Assembly (NCBI GenBank): GCA_015520985.1
Contig: WAOY01000033.1
Location: 1 to 17,915 of the forward strand
DNA length: 17,915 nt
Reading direction: 5' to 3'
Source: DHVE2 group archaeon
GTDB taxonomy: Archaea; Thermoplasmatota; Thermoplasmata; Thermoplasmatales; Aciduliprofundaceae
Every line of letters begins with the position of its first letter. Position 1 is the stretch's first letter. The notes under the pieces were generated by a model. The model did not search any database, was not told the DNA's origin, and saw nothing but the letters and a program-made list of their open reading frames with translations. Of this stretch, positions 1-15,548 are shown piece by piece. The position numbers were made by a program, and so were the translations under genes.

Positions 1-340
1 TTCTCTCATCGTCCGCCGCCTGTTTGAGGCTATCAACGAAAAGGCGCATTAGATGCTCTACCTCTTCGCGGCTCCGCATGAAATTCTCCGTGGAGAAAGC
101 GTATACCGTGACTATCTTTATTCCGAGTTCGCGACACCACTCCAGCACCTCCTCCAGCTTCTTTCGACCCATATCATGCCCGAGGAAGTGGTCAAGCCCA
201 AGCTCACTCGCAAATCTTCTATTTCCATCCATAATTATACCTACATGTCTCGGAATGACACCCTTCTTCACAATATCGAGAAGTTTCTTCTCGTATGCCC
301 TGTACGCCGTATCGGCTATTCCTCTGCTGAGCTGGTTCAT
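1..340 (-). CDS. uppS: cis-prenyltransferase (undecaprenyl/polyprenyl diphosphate synthase), C-terminus cut by window edge
   Basis: Cis-prenyltransferases add isopentenyl units in cis to an allylic diphosphate. In archaea the long product becomes the dolichyl-type carrier for protein and S-layer glycans. The first 113 residues are visible. Residues 31-43 (HVGIIMDGNRRFA) hold the family's signature with catalytic Asp38, and residues 77-87 (VTVYAFSTENF) are the second conserved block. Family members are about 240-260 residues, so roughly half is missing, beyond the window. I chose the ATG at 340 because a TATA-like box lies about 26 bases upstream, which fits a leaderless transcript. The gene lies 60 bases downstream of a giant surface protein with about 48 N-glycosylation sequons, a suggestive but unproven link. 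Family assignment is firm; exact chain length and product are not visible. Confidence 0.93.
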   Translation of the reverse strand, partial: MNQLSRGIADTAYRAYEKKLLDIVKKGVIPRHVGIIMDGNRRFASELGLDHFLGHDMGRKKLEEVLEWCRELGIKIVTVYAFSTENFMRSREEVEHLMRLFVDSLKQAADDER

Positions 341-400: not shown

Positions 401-3400
401 TTATTTTCTCCTTCTCCTCAGGAACACCATGAAGAGAGGTGCGGCCATCACAATTGCCACATAATGGAACTCTGGAACCGTCGTGCTGTCCACGGAGTTG
501 TCGGCACATGTGGAGAAAGCACTGGATATGTTAACGTATGTCTTAACATTCGTATTCGTGGTTACCTTCACTGCAATTCTCACGCTTCCACCGTTTGGCA
601 CAAGGAAATCCGGGTTCCCATCGTTATCGCGATCGTAGCCGGATGTTATACTATTCCACCCTGTTCCGGTGTTGCTGTACGCTATCACCACCCATGATCC
701 GCTCTGGTACATATAGAGGGTTATATTGACGTTCTGATTCGATTCCACAAGTACATTTATTATGTCGTACCCGCTGCCGTTATTCCATATTGTATGATTG
801 TACCACACCACCGTTCCTGTGGAGGAGTTAGTGTGCGGAGAGATAGATATATTGCAGTTTATCTGGAAGGTCGTGTAAGAGCTATTTTGCACGCCGTTTC
901 CCTCAATGGCGGTGACATTCACGTAGTAAGTTCCAACGAGGGCATCGGAGGGGATGTTGAAGGTGCCGTTGTAGATTAATGTACCTATCAACGGATGCAC
1001 CTCAGTAAGTTTAAGATTCACACTATACAAGGTCCCGTTCGGACTGGTTATATTGGCGGTAACGTTTCTAACATCAAATGATCCAAATGGCTCCCTGACC
1101 ACAGCGGTTATATTCATGGTATCCCCCGCACTGTAATTGCTCTGCAAAACCGGGCCGCTGGCTGTAAGGTTGTAGAGTTGCACATTTTCTACGTATATGT
1201 AGGAGGTAGTGTTGAACTCTATGCGAGAGGGGTATGTTGTGGAGTTAAAGTGAAGTGTAAGTGTGTTGTCTGCATACCACTTCATTGATATAGTATCTCC
1301 CGCGGGTATTAGGGATATTACAGGATGGATAATTATAGTATTCCACTGATATGTTCTTCCAGGAACCAAATATGTCGCAGACCCTACATAAGTACCATCA
1401 CTTAGAGTCAAGGTCACATTTATAGTCACATCAGTTGGTGGACGTATGTCATTATCAATATAAAGCTTAACTGCAATATCACCTGCCAGCACAAAGTCAT
1501 TTAGGAAAGGGGTAGTCATATTCCAGTACTCCCACATCTGGGTATTCTGAATAGTTAGATCTGCTGTGCCATTTGGTTCTAAGGGATATAGAGAATCATT
1601 TATTGTTGGATATGTGTCACCACCGCCGTACAGATACAAAGTCTTTATTTTCACCTCCCTGACCTTCGCTACGTCGTTCACCGTGTACGAAGAATTGCCT
1701 GTGAACGAAATAACTGTCAGATTTGAGTATGTGCTGGGATTCGTGGTGGTGAGGGTAACATTCATGGCTATCAGAATCCTCGGCCCCTCTCCCTGAATAA
1801 CGGTTATGTCGGGCTCGCCGTTACCGTCTGTGTCATTTTTCTTGTAAGTCCACGCACCCTGTGACGCGTTGTAAACCGCGTACAGCACGTCACTGGAATC
1901 TATAAGCCTGTTGTCATTACTGTCAAAGTATATACTCACGTCAAATTTCGGGGGATCCGCAGCAGAAAACCTGAAATTGTAAACATCGTCCCCGTCGCCT
2001 ATGTTCACTATACGGTGCCTGAACCAGATATGCGACTCACCAACAGGTACAAAAAGATACTTAGATGCGGCCCTCTTCAATCCGCTGTTTATCCAGAACG
2101 AACCATTTCCATTTGCAGCGAATCCTTCCATATCTGATGCCTGCACTAAAATAGAATATTTTCCCACAAAGACATAAGGATGACTAATATTACTAACCAA
2201 TTGGAACGAAAAATAGAAATGTACCCAACCGAACCCATCGGAATCCCACGTCATTTTGCTTCCAGAAATTATCGTGTTACCAAGTGCATCAGTTATATCA
2301 AGCGTTGTTGAATCTGCAATATGAGTTGCACCCAGTGGATCAGTGACATTGGCGTATACGCCAACAGTTTCACCTTTTTTGAAGTGACTCTGAAGGACCC
2401 TTGTGGTGTCATTAACAGTCCAGACATTTTTCACCAACATGGTGGAATTCGTGGTTATCGTGATATTTGAATCCTTTGGGGAAGAGTTGTTGTAAGATAT
2501 ATCTATGTAGTCATTATAGTATGCACCAATGAGATCCCCAGAGAAAGTGAAATACACACCCATTATAAGGCCTTTACCGATATAATCGCCAACCACATTC
2601 AGAGACGTTGTGTATTTGGTACCTACACTATTTGATAAATCGGTCCCACTTATGTTGCTATATGCTACCAACTCAGCATTATTTGCAGAAGTGTTTATTG
2701 AAACTAGGGATATGTTAAGGTAATCCGTACCCTGTATACTGGCATCATTCAGGTAAAAAGACACAGTTGCAGAGGTTACATTATATCTTTCCGTCATCTC
2801 GTTCTCATATCTCCACAATGTATACACTTTCTGAGATCCTAAGGCTAATTGCAGAGTAACGCTATTATCACTTGAGCCGAGGTTCCAGTCCATATAGTTA
2901 GGATTTCCGTTAGGATCGGCGTGAAAATAAAAAACATTAGATGTGGAATATGACCTTGAGTTTTTCGAAATAGAAGGCATATCATACTGATTCTCCCAGT
3001 TGAACACTGTTATCCACATCCTCGCATTCTGAAGTTTGAGGCCTGTGGAAAGCTCCACTGCGTGATACCCTGAGGCGATACTGTTTATCTCCCCCATATC
3101 TAGCCAGTTTCCAGATGAGTATTTGTACATATGTGCGTTGTAAATCCCATCTCTGCCGGAGATGGTTATCTTATAGTTCACGGGGAACGGAACCCAGTCA
3201 AAATGCGCACCGCTATTGCTGTAGCCTATATATATCTCCGCAGTATCATTTCCATTCTTGGGCCTTACCGGGGGCGCGGGACCTATGTACACGCTAACAT
3301 GCCTTCCCGCATATGGTTTGGGGAAGTCAGAAGGGATAGTGGTATTTAGCCATGTATCGTTTCCCGCAGGGTAGTCAATGTACCCATCCCCGTCCACATC

Positions 3401-5044
3401 CCCGTTGGAATCCTTATCGGGGGTACCATCGTTGTTGAAATCATGGGGATACGGATCGTACTTATCAGGTACCCCATCCCTGTCGCTGTCCTTGGGTGCC
3501 CACTTCCTCACGATTGGCACATCGTCACCGCCCATGAATTCACCGCGAACTTCGAAGTACACCTTGTCCATGGTTGGAGTGTGGGAATAATTAACAAGGT
3601 CTATATTTGCATCGGATGCATCCATAAGTATATCGCCGGTCCTGTTCTTCCAGTCGCCGAAGGCCCCATCTATTATAACAGAGGAGGGAGCAGCACGAAG
3701 ATAAACCTTGGACGTTTCGTAGAGATATGAGAAAGCAACATCCCGCGATGACATCTCAACGGTGAAGGAGAGAACGCTACCGGTTGCACCTGAATAATTA
3801 GCAGAAAAGAGGAGCTTTTCACTCTTGATATCTCGATCCACATCGAAACGCACAATGCCACCCTGTCCAGATGTACTTAGGGAGAAACCGGATCCCATTA
3901 CCGTCGCGTTATCCACATCCGCACCCTCACAGTAAACGACGAGGGATTTGAGGTGGAATTTCACCGGAGAGGTAATGTTGATTTCCAGAGCCGCGTCCCC
4001 ATCGTTGACCACGTCTTTCAGGGTGCTAACAACCACCTGCGCAGTAGGGGAGGAGACATAAACTGGGGGAGATCTCAGAATATCCCCTGATTTCATCATA
4101 ACCTCAACACGGGAATCGCTGGGGATACCGTTTATCATGAACTCTACACCGTTATCCCCCGCCGAGTATATGAGACCGCTGCTCTTTGTGAAGTTCCACA
4201 GGTACTGTCCGCTCACGTGCTTCCACAGGGTGGCGCCTTTTAGGGTTCCGTTCCAGCCATAGAACTCCACAACGTAGCTCGCCTTGATTCCGTCAACGTA
4301 ATACCCATCGTTCCTCCCGTCGTCTATGAAAACGTAGAAACTCTCCTCTTCGGAGAACATACCCCTCTCATGGATATAGAAGTAAAGCGCACCCGAATCA
4401 TACCTGTACTTGTAAATGGAATCTCCCAGGGGATACCCCCCGACGCTCTGCCATTCGCCGAAATTTCCATCGATTCTGAGGGACGGGGCCTGCATGTAGA
4501 AAACCGCGGCGGCAGCAGAGACAACCAGGAGGATAACTATAATGAAGGGAATCAGCCTGAAGCTCTTCTTCTCTTCCTCCTTGATCTTGGGAGCGCCGAA
4601 TCCGTTCACGAAACCCTCTTTGGAAAGTATAACGTTGTGGTTTATCTGCTCCTTCTTTACCCGGACCTCGGCCTTCCTAACCCCGGTCTTGAGGGCCGCT
4701 CGGAATATGATGTCAAATGCTTCCTTCTCGCTTACACCCAGGATCTTCGCTATCTCCTCTTTCTTTGCCCGGGCGATCTTCTGGACATCGTACTCGTTGT
4801 ACGCTAGTTTCTTCGCCTGTTCCTTATCCAGGCCCAGGGCATCCATGATGTCGTACATCCTGCCGGCGTACTGCCTGGCGGTGGCGATTATTATTTTCAG
4901 TTTTCCCCGGGATATCCTGGGGATGTGCTTCTTGAGTTCGTCCTCGTCCATCTTGGCAATCTCTTCTATGCCGATGCCGGCCTCTTCGAGCTTGCGGGCT
5001 CGCTTTTTCCCTATAAACGGAAGCTTCGTGTATTCCTCGCTCAT
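401..5044 (-). CDS. giant surface protein: cytoplasmic HhH domains, one TM, beta-sandwich ectodomain, VPEF-type C-terminal anchor
   Basis: A 1547-residue protein of unknown function. Residues 5-57 and 68-118 look like two helix-hairpin-helix (HHH_5-like) units, normally DNA- or protein-binding. Residues 163-183 are a single TM segment. After it come two related beta-sandwich units (from 190, IDGNFGEWQ, and 457, IDGAFGDW) resembling DOMON/CBM9-like domains. An Asp-rich calcium-loop region follows at 519-556 (DSDRDGVPD and similar). Two copies of a roughly 410-residue module then lead to the C-terminus: VPEF at 1523-1526, a hydrophobic stretch 1528-1542 and a basic RRRRK end, as in PEF-CTERM sorting signals. 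I count about 48 N-X-S/T sequons, all after the TM. The start overlaps the TPR gene's stop as ATGA, so the two are an operon. The middle of the gene is much AT-richer than its surroundings. Surface location is well supported; the role is not known. Confidence 0.85.
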   Translation of the reverse strand: MSEEYTKLPFIGKKRARKLEEAGIGIEEIAKMDEDELKKHIPRISRGKLKIIIATARQYAGRMYDIMDALGLDKEQAKKLAYNEYDVQKIARAKKEEIAKILGVSEKEAFDIIFRAALKTGVRKAEVRVKKEQINHNVILSKEGFVNGFGAPKIKEEEKKSFRLIPFIIVILLVVSAAAAVFYMQAPSLRIDGNFGEWQSVGGYPLGDSIYKYRYDSGALYFYIHERGMFSEEESFYVFIDDGRNDGYYVDGIKASYVVEFYGWNGTLKGATLWKHVSGQYLWNFTKSSGLIYSAGDNGVEFMINGIPSDSRVEVMMKSGDILRSPPVYVSSPTAQVVVSTLKDVVNDGDAALEINITSPVKFHLKSLVVYCEGADVDNATVMGSGFSLSTSGQGGIVRFDVDRDIKSEKLLFSANYSGATGSVLSFTVEMSSRDVAFSYLYETSKVYLRAAPSSVIIDGAFGDWKNRTGDILMDASDANIDLVNYSHTPTMDKVYFEVRGEFMGGDDVPIVRKWAPKDSDRDGVPDKYDPYPHDFNNDGTPDKDSNGDVDGDGYIDYPAGNDTWLNTTIPSDFPKPYAGRHVSVYIGPAPPVRPKNGNDTAEIYIGYSNSGAHFDWVPFPVNYKITISGRDGIYNAHMYKYSSGNWLDMGEINSIASGYHAVELSTGLKLQNARMWITVFNWENQYDMPSISKNSRSYSTSNVFYFHADPNGNPNYMDWNLGSSDNSVTLQLALGSQKVYTLWRYENEMTERYNVTSATVSFYLNDASIQGTDYLNISLVSINTSANNAELVAYSNISGTDLSNSVGTKYTTSLNVVGDYIGKGLIMGVYFTFSGDLIGAYYNDYIDISYNNSSPKDSNITITTNSTMLVKNVWTVNDTTRVLQSHFKKGETVGVYANVTDPLGATHIADSTTLDITDALGNTIISGSKMTWDSDGFGWVHFYFSFQLVSNISHPYVFVGKYSILVQASDMEGFAANGNGSFWINSGLKRAASKYLFVPVGESHIWFRHRIVNIGDGDDVYNFRFSAADPPKFDVSIYFDSNDNRLIDSSDVLYAVYNASQGAWTYKKNDTDGNGEPDITVIQGEGPRILIAMNVTLTTTNPSTYSNLTVISFTGNSSYTVNDVAKVREVKIKTLYLYGGGDTYPTINDSLYPLEPNGTADLTIQNTQMWEYWNMTTPFLNDFVLAGDIAVKLYIDNDIRPPTDVTINVTLTLSDGTYVGSATYLVPGRTYQWNTIIIHPVISLIPAGDTISMKWYADNTLTLHFNSTTYPSRIEFNTTSYIYVENVQLYNLTASGPVLQSNYSAGDTMNITAVVREPFGSFDVRNVTANITSPNGTLYSVNLKLTEVHPLIGTLIYNGTFNIPSDALVGTYYVNVTAIEGNGVQNSSYTTFQINCNISISPHTNSSTGTVVWYNHTIWNNGSGYDIINVLVESNQNVNITLYMYQSGSWVVIAYSNTGTGWNSITSGYDRDNDGNPDFLVPNGGSVRIAVKVTTNTNVKTYVNISSAFSTCADNSVDSTTVPEFHYVAIVMAAPLFMVFLRRRRK

Positions 5045-6228
5045 TCTACCAACCCACCCAGCTGTGATTTGTACTTGCTGGCCTCCTCATCCATCCCCAT
5101 AGCGGTGAGAAGAAAGTAATAATTGACCTTGGCGGCCTTCTTGTCCTGATCCACCTCTATCGCCTTCTCCAGGAGCTCGCGGGCTTTCTCGTACTCGCCC
5201 TTTTCCATATAGCACCTGGCCAGGTTGTTCAGCGCGTTGTAAAAGTGTGGATCCTCCTTCAGAACCTCCTGATATATCTCCATGGCCTTGTCTATCCTCC
5301 CGCTCCTGAAGTACAGGTTTCCGAGGTTCGTTTTGTAAACCTTGTCATTGCTTATCCTGACGAGTTTCCTGAGGTACTCTTCGCTCTCCTTGTAATTGCC
5401 CATCTTCATGAGCGCGAGGCCAAGGCCATTCAGAACGCGCTCGTCGTCGGGAAGGGCTTTGTACGCCCTCCTGAAGTGCTCCACGGCCTCCTTGTACTTC
5501 CCCTTCCTGAGAAGTTTGTATCCATTCTCAATATCTTCGATGACCTTTCTCTCCGCCAGACGATAAACCAGGATGTTTGCAAAGAACACGAAGAACACAA
5601 GCGATGCCATGCTTATGATGGTGAGGTCATATACACCGTAGCTGCCGTTGGCGTGTATGCTGAGGAGTTCGTGTGATGGCGCCAGGAACAGGAATGAAAG
5701 GGTAAGGAGTAGGAACCCCACGCTTACCGTCTCAACGTGCTTCCTGGAGCGTATGGTCAGAACTACACCTACGATCACCAAGATGGTCCCCAAGGAAAGC
5801 ACCATATAATCCAGGACTCCGAACTGCAGAGACAGGAACGCGCCCAGCGGGGGCATCACCGCGAGAAGGGCGAAGCCCACGTATGAGAGGATAACCCCCC
5901 TCTTCTCATCGCCGGCTATGTCCTTGCACAGCAGCAGGAAGAAGAGGGCTATGAGGGATATCACCCCGCCAATGAACCAGGAGAAGAACGTGATGGCTGC
6001 CCCAATGGCCAGTATCACGAGGGATGGCATGAGGAGCCAGTTGTTTTTACCTAACTGTAGATAATAGAGGAAGGTGAACGCCAGTGCGAGGATGACAAGC
6101 GTGAATATCATCTGCGTCGCAAGCAGGAATACGGTCTCGGCTTGCAGATTACCGAAGAAGAATATCAGTACCGCCGATATCACCGCTGCCACATCCAGCC
6201 CTAGTATATACTCAGCATACCTTTCCAT
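5041..6228 (-). CDS. eight-TM membrane protein with C-terminal TPR domain
   Basis: The N-terminal half has about eight hydrophobic segments, ending near residue 230 (numbered from the upstream ATG at 6246). Residues 239-399 carry four to five tetratricopeptide repeats with the usual G-Y-A pattern, for example 303-335 and 336-369. TPRs bind protein partners; here they should face the cytoplasm after the last TM segment. No catalytic motif is seen. The stop codon overlaps the next gene's start (ATGA), so it is translationally coupled to the giant HhH surface protein, whose N-terminus is also cytoplasmic; the TPRs may bind it, which is inference. An in-frame ATG exists at 6246, but it lies only about 11 bases from the TATA box centre, so the ATG at 6228 (MERYAEY) fits a leaderless transcript better. 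I recognise no named family beyond TPR. Confidence 0.85.
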   Translation of the reverse strand: MERYAEYILGLDVAAVISAVLIFFFGNLQAETVFLLATQMIFTLVILALAFTFLYYLQLGKNNWLLMPSLVILAIGAAITFFSWFIGGVISLIALFFLLLCKDIAGDEKRGVILSYVGFALLAVMPPLGAFLSLQFGVLDYMVLSLGTILVIVGVVLTIRSRKHVETVSVGFLLLTLSFLFLAPSHELLSIHANGSYGVYDLTIISMASLVFFVFFANILVYRLAERKVIEDIENGYKLLRKGKYKEAVEHFRRAYKALPDDERVLNGLGLALMKMGNYKESEEYLRKLVRISNDKVYKTNLGNLYFRSGRIDKAMEIYQEVLKEDPHFYNALNNLARCYMEKGEYEKARELLEKAIEVDQDKKAAKVNYYFLLTAMGMDEEASKYKSQLGGLVE

Positions 6229-6250
6229 GGATTGAATGATTGCCATTGTG

Positions 6251-9582: not shown

Positions 9583-9801
9583 ATGACGATGCCGTTGAAG
9601 ATGCTGGAAAGCTTTCTCGGGAAGCGCATATCGCTGCTCCTCAAGGACAACAGGGTTCTCGAGGGAAAGCTGATAGGGTATGACGACTACATGAACATGG
9701 TCCTGGAGGACACCGTGGAGACCACACCCGAGATGACGCGCAAGATAGGTGTTGTGATCCTGAGAGGGAACAACGTTGTGAGGATGACCCTCGTAGGATG
9801 A
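9583..9801 (+). CDS. LSm/Sm-like archaeal RNA-binding protein
   Basis: Sm-like proteins form heptameric rings that bind U-rich RNA. The 72-residue protein has the Sm1 motif from residue 13 to 43 (GKRISLLLKDNRVLEG, then the DDYMNMVLED strand) and the Sm2 motif VVILRGNNVVRM near the end, with the conserved Asp-x-x-x-Asn and RG(N/D) RNA-binding residues. I start it at the ATG 9583 (MTMPLKMLESF), with GGTGG shortly before it. The frame is open to an ATG at 9553, but that codon sits next to the TATA box. Its stop overlaps the start of the coiled-coil gene (ATGA at 9798-9801), making it the lead gene of a five-gene operon. Confidence 0.95.
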   Translation: MTMPLKMLESFLGKRISLLLKDNRVLEGKLIGYDDYMNMVLEDTVETTPEMTRKIGVVILRGNNVVRMTLVG

Positions 9802-11591
9802 ATATGAGCCTCGATAAGGTTATCTGTCCCAAGTGCGGAGGCGTTATAGATCCCGAGACCCTCACCTGCGATAGCTGCGGTGCTAAGTACACCCGCGAGG
9901 AATACGAGGCAATAAAGGACGAGCAGTCGCTGAAGAGCTGGCTCCTGGGCGGGGACGAGATAGACGTGCCCATCGGTGATGAGGAGGACTCCGACGCCCT
10001 GAAGAGGTGGCTCGAGGGGGACGAGGAAGCGTTTCTCGGGTGGGCCGAGGAGCGAGAACTCGGTCAGGAAAAGGTGGAGGAGATAAAGGAGAAGAGTGCG
10101 GAGATGAAGGCATCGGTGGAGGGGGGAGAGGTAAGCATAGACGAGGTTATACAGGAGAATCTCAAGCTGAAGAGCCTTCTCGAAGTGGAGACGAGCAAGA
10201 GGGAGGAACTTGAGGAGGAGATTGAGAAGCTCCGGAAGGAGATAGAGGTACTCAAGCAGGAGGCCGTGAAGGAGCTGCCCCAGGATGCGAAGGAACTCAA
10301 ACTCCTGGAGATGGAGCTCAAGCAGAAGGAGATAGAACTGGAGATGAGGGAGAAGAAACTCGCGCTCCAGGTGAGCAGCGCTGGGGGAATCTCTCCTGAG
10401 CAATTAGAGGAGTTGAAGAACCTTGTGAAGGACGGAGATGTGCAGAGGCTCCTGGACGAGATAAAGGACCTGAGCGAGCAGATCGCGGAGAAGGACAGGC
10501 TCATAAGCGAACTGAAGAACGAGCTGAGGATCAAGGAAGAGGAGATGAAGAAGCTCCAGGATATGATCAAGTACAAGGAGGAGGAGCTATCTAGAAGGGA
10601 GCAGGACCTGATGTTCCGCGAGAAGAAACTCGAAAAGGAGCTGCGCAACCTTGAGATGATGCGCAGCCAGATGGGCAACATGGACGAACTCGCCCTAAAA
10701 AGGAGGCTGGAGGACCTCCAGGACGAGATAAGGAGGAAAGAGGAGGAACTACGGGTAAAGATGAAGTACCTGGAGGCGAAGGAACGCGAGATAAAGGCGA
10801 AGATGGAGGGACTCGTGGAGGAAGAGCTCGCGCTGGCGGAGGAGGAGATAAAGGCGGAGATACAGGAGAGGAAGGTCCGCACGGGAACCCGCAGGCTAGA
10901 CGACCTCCTCTACGGGGGATTTCCTATCGGGTCAAACATACTGATATACGGACCACCATACAGCAAGAAGGAGGTCCTGATATACTCCTTCATGGCTGAG
11001 GGCCTGAAGAAGGGAGTGCCGGTTGTGTGGATTCTAACGGACAAAACTGTCTCAGAGATCCGGGAAGCTATGAGTTTCGTGCTCCCCGCTTACGAGCAGT
11101 ACGAGAAGATGGGCCTGGTTCACTACGTGGACGCGTACTCCAAGAGCATCGGGGAGGAAGAGGAGATAGAGGGCGTAATATACCTCGACTCCCAGACCGA
11201 TGTGGATGGGATAAGCAAGGCCGTGGAGGACATAGCAAAGAAGTTGAAGGAGAAGCACCCATACTACCGCCTCGCCTTCATGAGCCTCTCCACGGTCATG
11301 GCATACATGGACCAGCAGTCCCTGCTCAAGTTCCTGCAGCCCTTCACCACGAGGAGAAACAGGGACAACGCCGTCTCCCTCTACCTCCTCGAGAAGGGCC
11401 TGCATAGTGAGAACGAGATTCAGATGGTCGGCTACCTGATGGACGGCATGATAGAATTCAAGATCGAGGCGCACAAGACGTATCTCACCGTGCACGGCAT
11501 AACCGAGGTGCAGAGCAGGAGCTGGATCGAGGTCACCGCGAGCAAGAGTGGCATCCAGCTCGGTTCGTTCAGCCTGGGGCACATCAAATGA
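9798..11591 (+). CDS. zinc-ribbon / long coiled-coil / degenerate KaiC-like (RecA-fold) protein
   Basis: A 597-residue protein of unknown role. Residues 10-27 are a zinc ribbon (CPKCG and CDSCG). Residues 45-51 and 68-74 carry a repeated L-K-x-W-L element. Residues 90-358 are almost all Glu/Lys/Leu coiled coil, broken near 192-200. The C-terminal 235 residues resemble a KaiC/RecA domain, starting RTGTRRLDDLLYGGFPIGS. The Walker A loop is degraded: G385-PPYSK-K391-E392, where the usual Gly and Ser/Thr are replaced by Lys390 and Glu392. The Walker B region, RLAFMSLS (491-498), has Met where KaiC has Asp. ATP hydrolysis is therefore doubtful. The start is ATG 9798, overlapping the LSm stop; ATG 9804 is possible. 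The stop overlaps the next gene as ATGA. It may act as a scaffold or nucleotide-sensing adaptor, which is inference. Confidence 0.85.
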   Translation: MNMSLDKVICPKCGGVIDPETLTCDSCGAKYTREEYEAIKDEQSLKSWLLGGDEIDVPIGDEEDSDALKRWLEGDEEAFLGWAEERELGQEKVEEIKEKSAEMKASVEGGEVSIDEVIQENLKLKSLLEVETSKREELEEEIEKLRKEIEVLKQEAVKELPQDAKELKLLEMELKQKEIELEMREKKLALQVSSAGGISPEQLEELKNLVKDGDVQRLLDEIKDLSEQIAEKDRLISELKNELRIKEEEMKKLQDMIKYKEEELSRREQDLMFREKKLEKELRNLEMMRSQMGNMDELALKRRLEDLQDEIRRKEEELRVKMKYLEAKEREIKAKMEGLVEEELALAEEEIKAEIQERKVRTGTRRLDDLLYGGFPIGSNILIYGPPYSKKEVLIYSFMAEGLKKGVPVVWILTDKTVSEIREAMSFVLPAYEQYEKMGLVHYVDAYSKSIGEEEEIEGVIYLDSQTDVDGISKAVEDIAKKLKEKHPYYRLAFMSLSTVMAYMDQQSLLKFLQPFTTRRNRDNAVSLYLLEKGLHSENEIQMVGYLMDGMIEFKIEAHKTYLTVHGITEVQSRSWIEVTASKSGIQLGSFSLGHIK

Positions 11592-11902: not shown

Positions 11903-14036
<2,134 letters not shown>

Positions 14037-14075: not shown

Positions 14076-15548
14076 ATGGGATTCTCCTCCTTCCGAAGGG
14101 TATCCGCGCTTATCCTCGTGCTTCTACTTTTCTACGCCCCATTCCATGCGGGGCCTGCCGCCTCCGGCGTGGGAGCGACGAGATCATGGGACAGCGAGGG
14201 TCTGCACATTATCCCGATAGAGAACTACGGCTATGCACCCATGCTCAAGCACCTGATTGACAATGCAACCTCCTACATACACATCTCCATGAACGTTATG
14301 AGCGATTACGAGCCCGTGAAAACGCTCCTGGATTCGCTCATCTCCGCAAAGAACAGGGGCGTGGATGTGCTCGTTATTTACGAGGGAGACATCTCGTCCA
14401 ACAGGTACGCGGCACAATACCTGAGGGACGGCGGGGTGGCCGTGAAGAACGACTCCTCCGAAAAGTTCATACACACAAAGATGGTGGTGATAGACGGGCG
14501 CGTGGTGTACCTCGGATCGCACAACTGGAGCCCCTACGCTATGGAGAAGAACAACGAGTACGGGGTTCTCATATTCAACAGGAGCATCGCCGGATTCTAC
14601 GAGGGGTACTTCCAATCGCTCTGGGATGATGCGAATCTCACCCCTTCTCTATCGCCAGCGAGGGAGGAAAGCGATGGGATGGTGATTGAAACATGCTACG
14701 ACGGATACACCTATGATGCCCTGAGGGACCTGATATCCTTGGCTCAGAACAGGCTATACGTGGCCATGTACACCATGGCGTACTACTCCAACCCCACCGG
14801 CGCCGAGGAGAAGGTGGATAACCTGGTGAACGGGATAGTTGAGAAGAGGGGAATCGCGAAGGTCATCCTGGACGACCACGACAGCGAAGATTCATATGAT
14901 TACCTTTCCGGCAACGGTGTGGATGTGATCTACGACTCATCCGCTGTGCTAACCCACCTGAAACTGGTAATAGCGGACGACGCGGTTTACATCGGGGACG
15001 CCAACTGGGACACATGGTACCTCGACAACGATACGCACACTGTGGGCGTGGTGATACGCAACGAGTCCGTGGCCACCTTCTTCGCGGGATACTTCCTGAC
15101 CATATACAAATACGGGGACGCGCCGTACTACATACCAGACGGCTTCGTGGAACGGCGATACTACGAGGCAAACCCGGGTGAATCCCTCAGTTTCTATGTC
15201 TACCTGGCCAACGGCGGGGCGGTTAACGACACGGAATTTCACATCGTCCCGGGAGGGGAACTTCAGGTGGACATAAATGAGAATCCCTCGTGGAACAGGG
15301 AATCCGTCTATGACTGGATAAGGGAAGTTGCCACGGTGCAGGTTCCATCCGGGGCAAGCGGGAACTACACCATCTCCCTCACCTTCTACTCCAAGTACTA
15401 CCACATCAACTACACAGCGTACATCGTGATAAGCGTCAGGAGCGAGGTCCCCGAGATGAGCCCGATATCCGCGGCCTTTTCAATCTTCTTCGCTGTCGCG
15501 CTCATTAGGATTCGGGGCTCAGCAGGAAAACGCGGAGGGCGATCATAG
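14076..15548 (+). CDS. exported phospholipase D-family protein with VPEM-type C-terminal membrane anchor
   Basis: PLD enzymes cut phosphodiester bonds in lipids or nucleic acids through a phosphohistidine. The 490-residue protein starts with a signal peptide (basic FRR, then hydrophobic 10-22, with cleavage likely near Ala28-Ala34). It has two intact HKD motifs, His133/Lys135/Asp140 followed by GSHNW, and His294/Lys296/Asp301 followed by GDANW, so one chain can make a full active site. Residues 365-455 look like a beta-sandwich. The end is VPEM (458-461), a hydrophobic stretch 463-478 and a basic tail, resembling the giant protein's VPEF anchor. It should be cell-surface bound and act outside the cell on lipid or DNA; the substrate is unknown. 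The final 44 bases, coding the basic tail, overlap the convergent MFS gene. Confidence 0.92.
   Translation: MGFSSFRRVSALILVLLLFYAPFHAGPAASGVGATRSWDSEGLHIIPIENYGYAPMLKHLIDNATSYIHISMNVMSDYEPVKTLLDSLISAKNRGVDVLVIYEGDISSNRYAAQYLRDGGVAVKNDSSEKFIHTKMVVIDGRVVYLGSHNWSPYAMEKNNEYGVLIFNRSIAGFYEGYFQSLWDDANLTPSLSPAREESDGMVIETCYDGYTYDALRDLISLAQNRLYVAMYTMAYYSNPTGAEEKVDNLVNGIVEKRGIAKVILDDHDSEDSYDYLSGNGVDVIYDSSAVLTHLKLVIADDAVYIGDANWDTWYLDNDTHTVGVVIRNESVATFFAGYFLTIYKYGDAPYYIPDGFVERRYYEANPGESLSFYVYLANGGAVNDTEFHIVPGGELQVDINENPSWNRESVYDWIREVATVQVPSGASGNYTISLTFYSKYYHINYTAYIVISVRSEVPEMSPISAAFSIFFAVALIRIRGSAGKRGGRS

Follow-up and report, generated by a model that had tools for sequence, protein, structure and literature searches.

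A predicted giant surface protein with a cytoplasmic helix-hairpin-helix pair in a DHVE2 group archaeon, and its relatives with exchangeable cytoplasmic ends

Genes and predicted topology at the locus

The window, i.e., the whole 17,915-nucleotide stretch of DNA analysed here (contig WAOY01000033.1), belongs to an assembly of 1.29 Mb in 239 contigs (79.75% complete) from a vent archaeon of the DHVE2 group, which NCBI places in the Thermoplasmatota beside Candidatus Aciduliprofundum. A single uninterrupted frame on its minus strand (401..5044), for which orthologues were found, encodes a protein of 1547 residues, hereafter the giant, that joins a helix-hairpin-helix (HhH) pair, two transmembrane (TM) helices and a long ectodomain in one chain; all its parts are given below on the minus strand. 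Upstream of it, the gene at 5041..6246 (minus strand) codes for a 401-aa protein with eight predicted TM helices and a TPR domain. Downstream lies a cis-prenyltransferase of the undecaprenyl diphosphate synthase family (1..340, minus strand; PF01255, E 7.4e-27), a conserved neighbour that is cut by the window edge.

A protein search with residues 1-190 as the query (about 5.8 billion proteins, E<=1e-3) returned 15 proteins, one of which is the window's own. Twelve others (879-1569 aa) match 99-100% of the N-terminal region at 53-75% identity and form with the giant the window-type proteins P0001-P0013, of which the sequences of P0011 and P0013 stop before any C-terminal TM. The remaining two, P0014 (1801 aa) and P0015 (1798 aa), match HhH unit 1 alone and have an insert between their two HhH units; DUF835, considered as a name for this insert, was dropped, since a Pfam scan of P0014 did not show it at E<=0.1. 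A tblastn search of genome contigs found six loci with the window-type region in DHVE2 MAGs; the protein set, the tblastn loci and the genome set overlap, and their counts are not summed. A fusion or assembly artefact was ruled out, since HhH units and ectodomain stand together in the 12 further proteins from several assemblies, and because these keep the same architecture, chance is excluded both for HhH unit 1 and for the architecture as a whole. The DHVE2 loci also keep both parts together, which bears out the preliminary description in its claim that HhH units, TM helix and ectodomain share one chain.

The first TM helix (TM1, residues 164-184; 4493..4555) is presumably a signal-anchor. 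Its N-terminal flank is more positive than its C-terminal flank in 71 of 72 members of the family described below, the remaining one being tied, and sequons number 0 within residues 1-163 of the giant versus 48 in the ectodomain; three orthologues counted in the same way have 1, 2 and 1 N-terminally versus 33, 46 and 45 in the ectodomain. Flank charges and sequon distribution together are consistent with a chain whose N-terminus would lie inside, whose ectodomain would lie outside and whose C-terminus would return to the inside, and the flank charges agree with the cytoplasmic position that had been proposed for the HhH pair. With an HhH model built from the family, no HhH unit was detected behind TM1 across 76 parts.

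The ectodomain (residues 188-1520; 485..4483) was modelled with ten rows over residues 186-900; across this span it is beta, interrupted here and there by a short turn of helix, with a mean pLDDT of 71. Fold comparison, which barely covered residues 186-330 and 455-690, pointed to a beta-sandwich at residues 335-450 (3695..4042) resembling the N-terminal part of sialidase and integrin domains, and to a jelly-roll at residues 696-868 (2441..2959) resembling the C-terminal part of CocE / X-Pro dipeptidyl aminopeptidase. An Asp-rich stretch of calcium-binding type (residues 519-560; 3365..3490; DSDRDGVPD...DVDGDGYID) is absent from one of ten orthologues (P0012), and this single row also accounts for its zero invariant columns in the ten-row alignment; TSP_3 matches are weak (best E 0.27) and occur in 3/10 members. 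An MG2-like domain at residues 1304-1389 (878..1135) reached a Pfam E of 3.5e-6 at 27.7 bits, below the cut-off of 32.8. Self-comparison of the ectodomain gave no internal repeats at E<=1. The IDG.F.[DE]W look of its domains had suggested CBM9 (PF06452), an assignment that was rejected because the profile had no genomic match at E<=10 and hit none of 10 ectodomain pieces at E<=1.

The chain ends with VPEF, a hydrophobic stretch and RRRRK (residues 1523-1547; 404..478), so that the C-terminal VPEF-type anchor of the preliminary description is supported. All 27 family members (of 72) with a C-terminal TM in their sequence carry a PE-type motif, under a loose pattern (PE or PI then L, F, I, V or M; PE.P; or VPE), and 26 of the 27 have a net positive C-terminal tail, the exception being L073 at -1. 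The same tripartite layout of short motif, hydrophobic stretch and basic tail is found in the PGF-CTERM archaeosortase substrates of Haloferax (PMC7157517), with VPE[LF] as the motif instead in the giant. The exosortase/archaeosortase family PF09721 was found neither in the source genome (80% complete) nor in the relatives G001, G003 and G004 (93-96% complete), and it exceeded its cut-off in 4 of 21 genomes; if cleaved, the giant's C-terminus would be lipid-linked instead of forming a second TM helix. Elsewhere in the window (14076..15548, plus strand), a phospholipase-D-type protein (PLDc_2) begins with a hydrophobic segment and finishes with VPEM, followed by hydrophobic and then basic residues; it may be a PLD-family protein that is anchored at the surface and shares the giant's type of C-terminal signal.

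Fold, conservation and charge of the helix-hairpin-helix pair

The two HhH-like units that had been proposed within residues 5-118 are both recovered, with unequal profile scores. Unit 1 (residues 4-58; 4871..5035) is matched by HHH_5 (PF14520) over residues 3-57 when the whole giant is searched against Pfam (E 2e-9, 38.2 bits) and more strongly when the N-terminal 165 residues are searched alone (E 4.4e-12, 46.7 bits), in both cases above the cut-off of 27. Unit 2 (residues 63-118; 4691..4858) is degenerate: it stays under the Pfam cut-offs, with an HHH_2 match at 75-110, and weakly resembles the Rad51/RadA N-domain, a weak and partial RadA match at 66-122 being the sole NCBIfam match of the giant. 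The family-built HhH model, which was seeded by nine units from proteins that it afterwards searched, detects unit 2 in 13/13 window-type proteins. In an AlphaFold2 model of residues 1-185 (eight rows), two units of alternating helices span residues 13-120, with mean pLDDT of 91-96 across ten-residue blocks of residues 11-120, followed by a low-confidence stretch at 125-163 and a helix at 165-184. The model thus gives residues 1-120 as HhH, as anticipated, and predicts with confidence that residues 11-120 fold as helix-hairpin-helix. A resemblance to DUF4332 (PF14229) had also been suggested and did not hold up, as no profile match was obtained in the giant's gene; the genome's only match at E<=1e-3 lies on contig 98 (E 4.9e-4, below the cut-off).

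Comparison of the HhH model with known structures by VIA-align, which covered mainly model residues 1-73, matched NusA repeats, RadA, Pol theta and Hel308-type domains, all within Z 8.5 to 7.0, with SAM domains at about 6; Foldseek gave no match for the model at E<=0.001, and the best PDB sequence match for the HhH region is weak (E 0.023). The N-domain of RadA/Rad51 and the C-terminal domain of Hel308/Pol theta are HHH_5 domains like the giant's unit, but they belong to soluble DNA enzymes, whereas the giant is predicted to span the membrane and no enzyme domain was found in it. NusA repeats are likewise tandem HhH units in a soluble protein and are called acidic, unlike the basic unit 1 of the membrane-spanning giant. 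ComEA-type DNA receptors carry HhH on a membrane-anchored protein, as the giant does, but outside the cell and with no giant ectodomain, whereas the giant's HhH pair would lie inside. A shared fold in itself shows no function.

Conservation was measured on ten of the fifteen proteins, leaving out P0004 (a near copy of P0003), P0014 and P0015 (which are not orthologues), and P0011 and P0013 (C-terminal TM absent from the sequence). Unit 1 has a mean pairwise identity of 0.79 across these ten full-length orthologues, against 0.55 for unit 2, 0.45 for TM1, 0.35-0.65 for stretches of the ectodomain, and 0.59 and 0.31 for the other parts of the linker; the six residues GFVNGF within it reach 0.92. 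Save for GFVNGF, all other stretches thus fall within 0.31-0.65, and unit 1 has the highest identity of any long stretch. Invariant residues occupy 29 of its 55 positions, and 11 positions have K or R in every sequence: five at hairpin 1 or directly behind it (13, 14, 15, 17, 18), three likewise at hairpin 2 (43, 48, 50) and three elsewhere (38, 39, 57). Unit 2 is not consistently basic overall, with two always-basic positions only (95, 100). From the identity and the invariant and basic positions we infer that selection guards the basic unit 1 more than any long part of the predicted surface region.

This pattern is what favours a tether between envelope and nucleoid, in which unit 1 would bind DNA without sequence preference and the chain would tie the chromosome to the surface. 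Further in its favour, the net charge of unit 1 lies between +3 and +9 in 13/13 window-type proteins, P0014 and P0015 each having +8 for their first unit, and the hairpin IGKKRARKL of unit 1 resembles IGRVRARRL of the Hel308-family HHH_5 domains in the source genome and in G007 (L160 and L161, partial frames matching archaeal helicase domain 4 and Hel308 models, net +7 and +8). According to PMC4671958, the corresponding domain of Hel308 is in contact with the 3' ssDNA tail in the crystal. Against this, the 33 other HhH units of the family (outside the set returned with residues 1-190) have a mean net charge of -0.2 and only two reach +3, and the first hairpin glycine is replaced by F or Y in all 13 window-type proteins. 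Net charge as a test of DNA binding was dropped altogether, as values from -3 to +8 occur among the RadA, Hef/XPF-type and Hel308 HhH units of these two genomes, with the RadA N-domain of G007 at -3 and three Hef/XPF-type nuclease frames at +7, 0 and -2. The weak PDB sequence matches and the structural comparison, in which NusA repeats, which bind protein, reach the same Z and SAM domains come not far below, also count against a tether. On balance we regard DNA tethering as possible but less likely than not, and as the chief rival of the reading preferred below; nucleoid tethering, the interpretation offered in the preliminary description, is one of several possibilities.

A family with exchangeable cytoplasmic ends

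A family profile (A1) consisting of the linker, the TM helix and the first ~400 ectodomain residues was built from the window, its orthologues, its paralogues and P0014. It matched 18 of the 117 genomes of the order, namely 17/18 of the window's own taxonomic family (f1) plus G021 of f5, and no genome of families f2, f3, f4 and f6. In the class, 97 of 300 genomes sampled (about a third; 36/90 genera) also gave matches, as did 17 of 194 sampled in the phylum, where some are weak or partial. The source genome alone has six family places, on contigs 33 (the giant's gene), 212, 133, 100, 134 and 206, four of which have a recognised HhH unit. The preliminary description is supported as regards architecture, sidedness and anchor. 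The design is not unique to the giant's gene; it recurs across a family that spans the class and exchanges its cytoplasmic ends.

These ends were examined in 57 further members, 17 from a set of 20 loci, the other three having no frame of at least 300 aa with E<=1e-3, and 40 from a second set of 40; the selection is biased, as the members come from the better profile places, mostly with a match starting in the linker. Against Pfam at E<=0.01, the 58 ends (window included) gave HHH_5 in 23, TPR_2 in 27 and Zn_ribbon_3 in 32. They cannot be aligned end to end, and the invariant columns of their alignment were not used. The family HhH model recognised 63 units in 41 of 76 N-terminal parts, comprising all 15 proteins of the search with residues 1-190, 4/4 paralogues and 22 of the 57 others (seeds included). 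Some paralogues have TPR within the same chain, over the Pfam cut-off in L071 and below it in L074 and L072. The KaiC ATPase family was confirmed in 3/3 KaiC-looking ends (E 1.3e-23, 4e-23 and 1.2e-22), where TPR and zinc ribbon come behind the ATPase; L097, L098 and L103 are surface giants with this KaiC-like ATPase, TPR and zinc ribbon at the cytoplasmic N-terminus. Module exchange is seen directly in the sequence of G010, where an ectodomain 45% identical to that of the window over the A1 region is combined with different HhH units, of the paralogue type. Family members share the juxtamembrane G..NG motif, the TM helix and the ectodomain, while the cytoplasmic end varies between HhH, zinc ribbon, TPR, KaiC-like ATPase and none.

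Exchangeable ends that include KaiC-like ATPases, together with the jelly-roll and sandwich folds of the ectodomain, would also suit a transmembrane receptor, whose ectodomains would bind an extracellular polymer or neighbouring cells and whose HhH, TPR, zinc-ribbon or KaiC end would relay a signal. Jelly-roll and sandwich folds are often found in carbohydrate-binding proteins. However, neither Pfam nor NCBIfam gave a receiver or output domain in the window protein, CBM9 is not among the genome's matches at E<=10, and a disordered linker would probably conduct signals poorly; we consider such a receptor quite improbable.

The linker itself carries the G..NG motif, in the giant GFVNGFG (residues 144-150; 4595..4615), which becomes a many-copy repeat in other members, with up to 31 NG copies in the family; in L120 and L131, 30 and 31 NG copies (GLTNGN or GLVNGN repeats) fill the stretch between N-terminus and TM. 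G..NG precedes TM1 by 13-32 residues in 70 of the 72 members, against 14.2 expected from shuffles of the same 60 residues, an excess that is partly built in, as members were partly chosen through the motif. In five members (L066, L068, L120, L124 and L131) the linker would be the only part inside the cell, with no Pfam match at E<=0.001 in 5/5 ends, and because of this lack of a Pfam domain the docking domain seems dispensable in the family. The same five members favour the view that the HhH pair is an oligomerization or spacer module with no cytoplasmic partner, in a purely structural surface component, as does the presence of SAM-type folds, some of them oligomerizing, among the fold matches. 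That view leaves unexplained both the higher conservation of unit 1 relative to the ectodomain and the exchange with TPR, zinc-ribbon and ATPase modules, and we hold it to be very improbable.

Module types as in some of these cytoplasmic ends, but without the linker, also occur in the window at 9798..11591 (plus strand), which encodes 597 residues with a weak N-terminal zinc-ribbon (E 0.0011), a long, charged middle resembling a coiled coil and a KaiC-type ATPase. On contig 134 of the source genome (G000), the frame L163 combines zinc-ribbon-like CxxC stretches and several hydrophobic segments with an HhH unit that is basic (net +6), and the opposite-strand frame adjoining it is likewise hydrophobic; HhH units near membranes may be common in this genome.

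The family is absent from the literature that we found, as judged from titles and the starts of abstracts with partial coverage of subscription papers. While its domains were already known, their combination in one chain, the class-wide spread and the exchange of ends are apparently undescribed.

Docking onto a cytoplasmic complex and the neighbouring TPR gene

The upstream gene for the 8-TM TPR protein overlaps the start of the giant's gene by 4 nt in all seven genomes with a window-type N-terminus (the window, L022, L023, L025, L027, L154 and L155) among 61 searched, and in the same genus G004 (95% complete) and G005 (70%) have neither the window-type N-terminus nor a full-length TPR protein. 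The pairing is not obligatory, judging from the gene neighbourhoods, because the TPR protein also occurs without a giant gene alongside: G010, whose own family member has other HhH units, encodes it on a contig with no adjoining giant, and G009 and G011-G017 lack a window-type N-terminus but have a TPR relative of 35-49% identity (a partial one in G016), the surroundings having been examined in G009-G014. The TPR gene looks older than its pairing with the giant. Members of the giant's family are carried by G011 as well.

The reading that we prefer, to which we give about an even chance, is docking: through its HhH pair the surface protein would attach to a complex of proteins in the cytoplasm, of which the 8-TM TPR protein may be a part. 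The giant would cross the membrane twice, with the HhH pair in the cytoplasm and a 45-residue linker bearing the G..NG motif running from it to TM1, ~1330 residues of beta domains, open to glycosylation, on the outside, and a second TM of VPEF type leading back into the cytoplasm; one platform of ectodomain, TM helix and linker carries exchangeable modules (HhH, zinc ribbon, TPR, KaiC-like) in this Thermoplasmatota family, and docking of the HhH pair would allow envelope elements to be positioned or sensed from inside. The analysis shows the architecture, the modelled fold, the conservation, the gene pairing and the exchange of ends, whereas the place at the surface, the docking and the partner are inferred. 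The exchangeable ends fit surface-anchored docking proteins, and the nearest folds include the NusA repeats, which are seen in complexes with SuhB and N protein. TPR and zinc ribbon are largely protein-binding in known proteins. We rank docking above DNA tethering because the charge is undecisive, the fold is functionally mute and the modules that replace or accompany HhH largely bind proteins. Counting against docking are the linker-only members, the non-obligatory gene pairing and the TPR part of the 8-TM protein, which is itself slightly basic (+2 to +6 in 7/7), so that charge lends no support to its binding of the basic unit 1.

To our knowledge, how the surface is coupled to the cytoplasm in archaea that have no peptidoglycan is largely open, and a surface platform with exchangeable nucleic-acid-type and docking modules would give a concrete route for such coupling. 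A bolder proposal, which we consider unlikely, is that the Thermoplasmatota surface is built on two-pass giants from a multigene family, with their cytoplasmic modules (HhH, zinc ribbon, TPR and KaiC) clamping the envelope to the chromosome or to transcription or repair complexes, and with the basic unit 1 of the window subfamily as a direct DNA clamp; if true, one polypeptide would physically link the outer surface to the nucleoid.

Among the other genes of the window, the one at 11906..13498 (plus strand) encodes a TsaD (Kae1-type) domain fused to a kinase domain, which we take to be the ordinary Kae1-Bud32 arrangement known in archaea.
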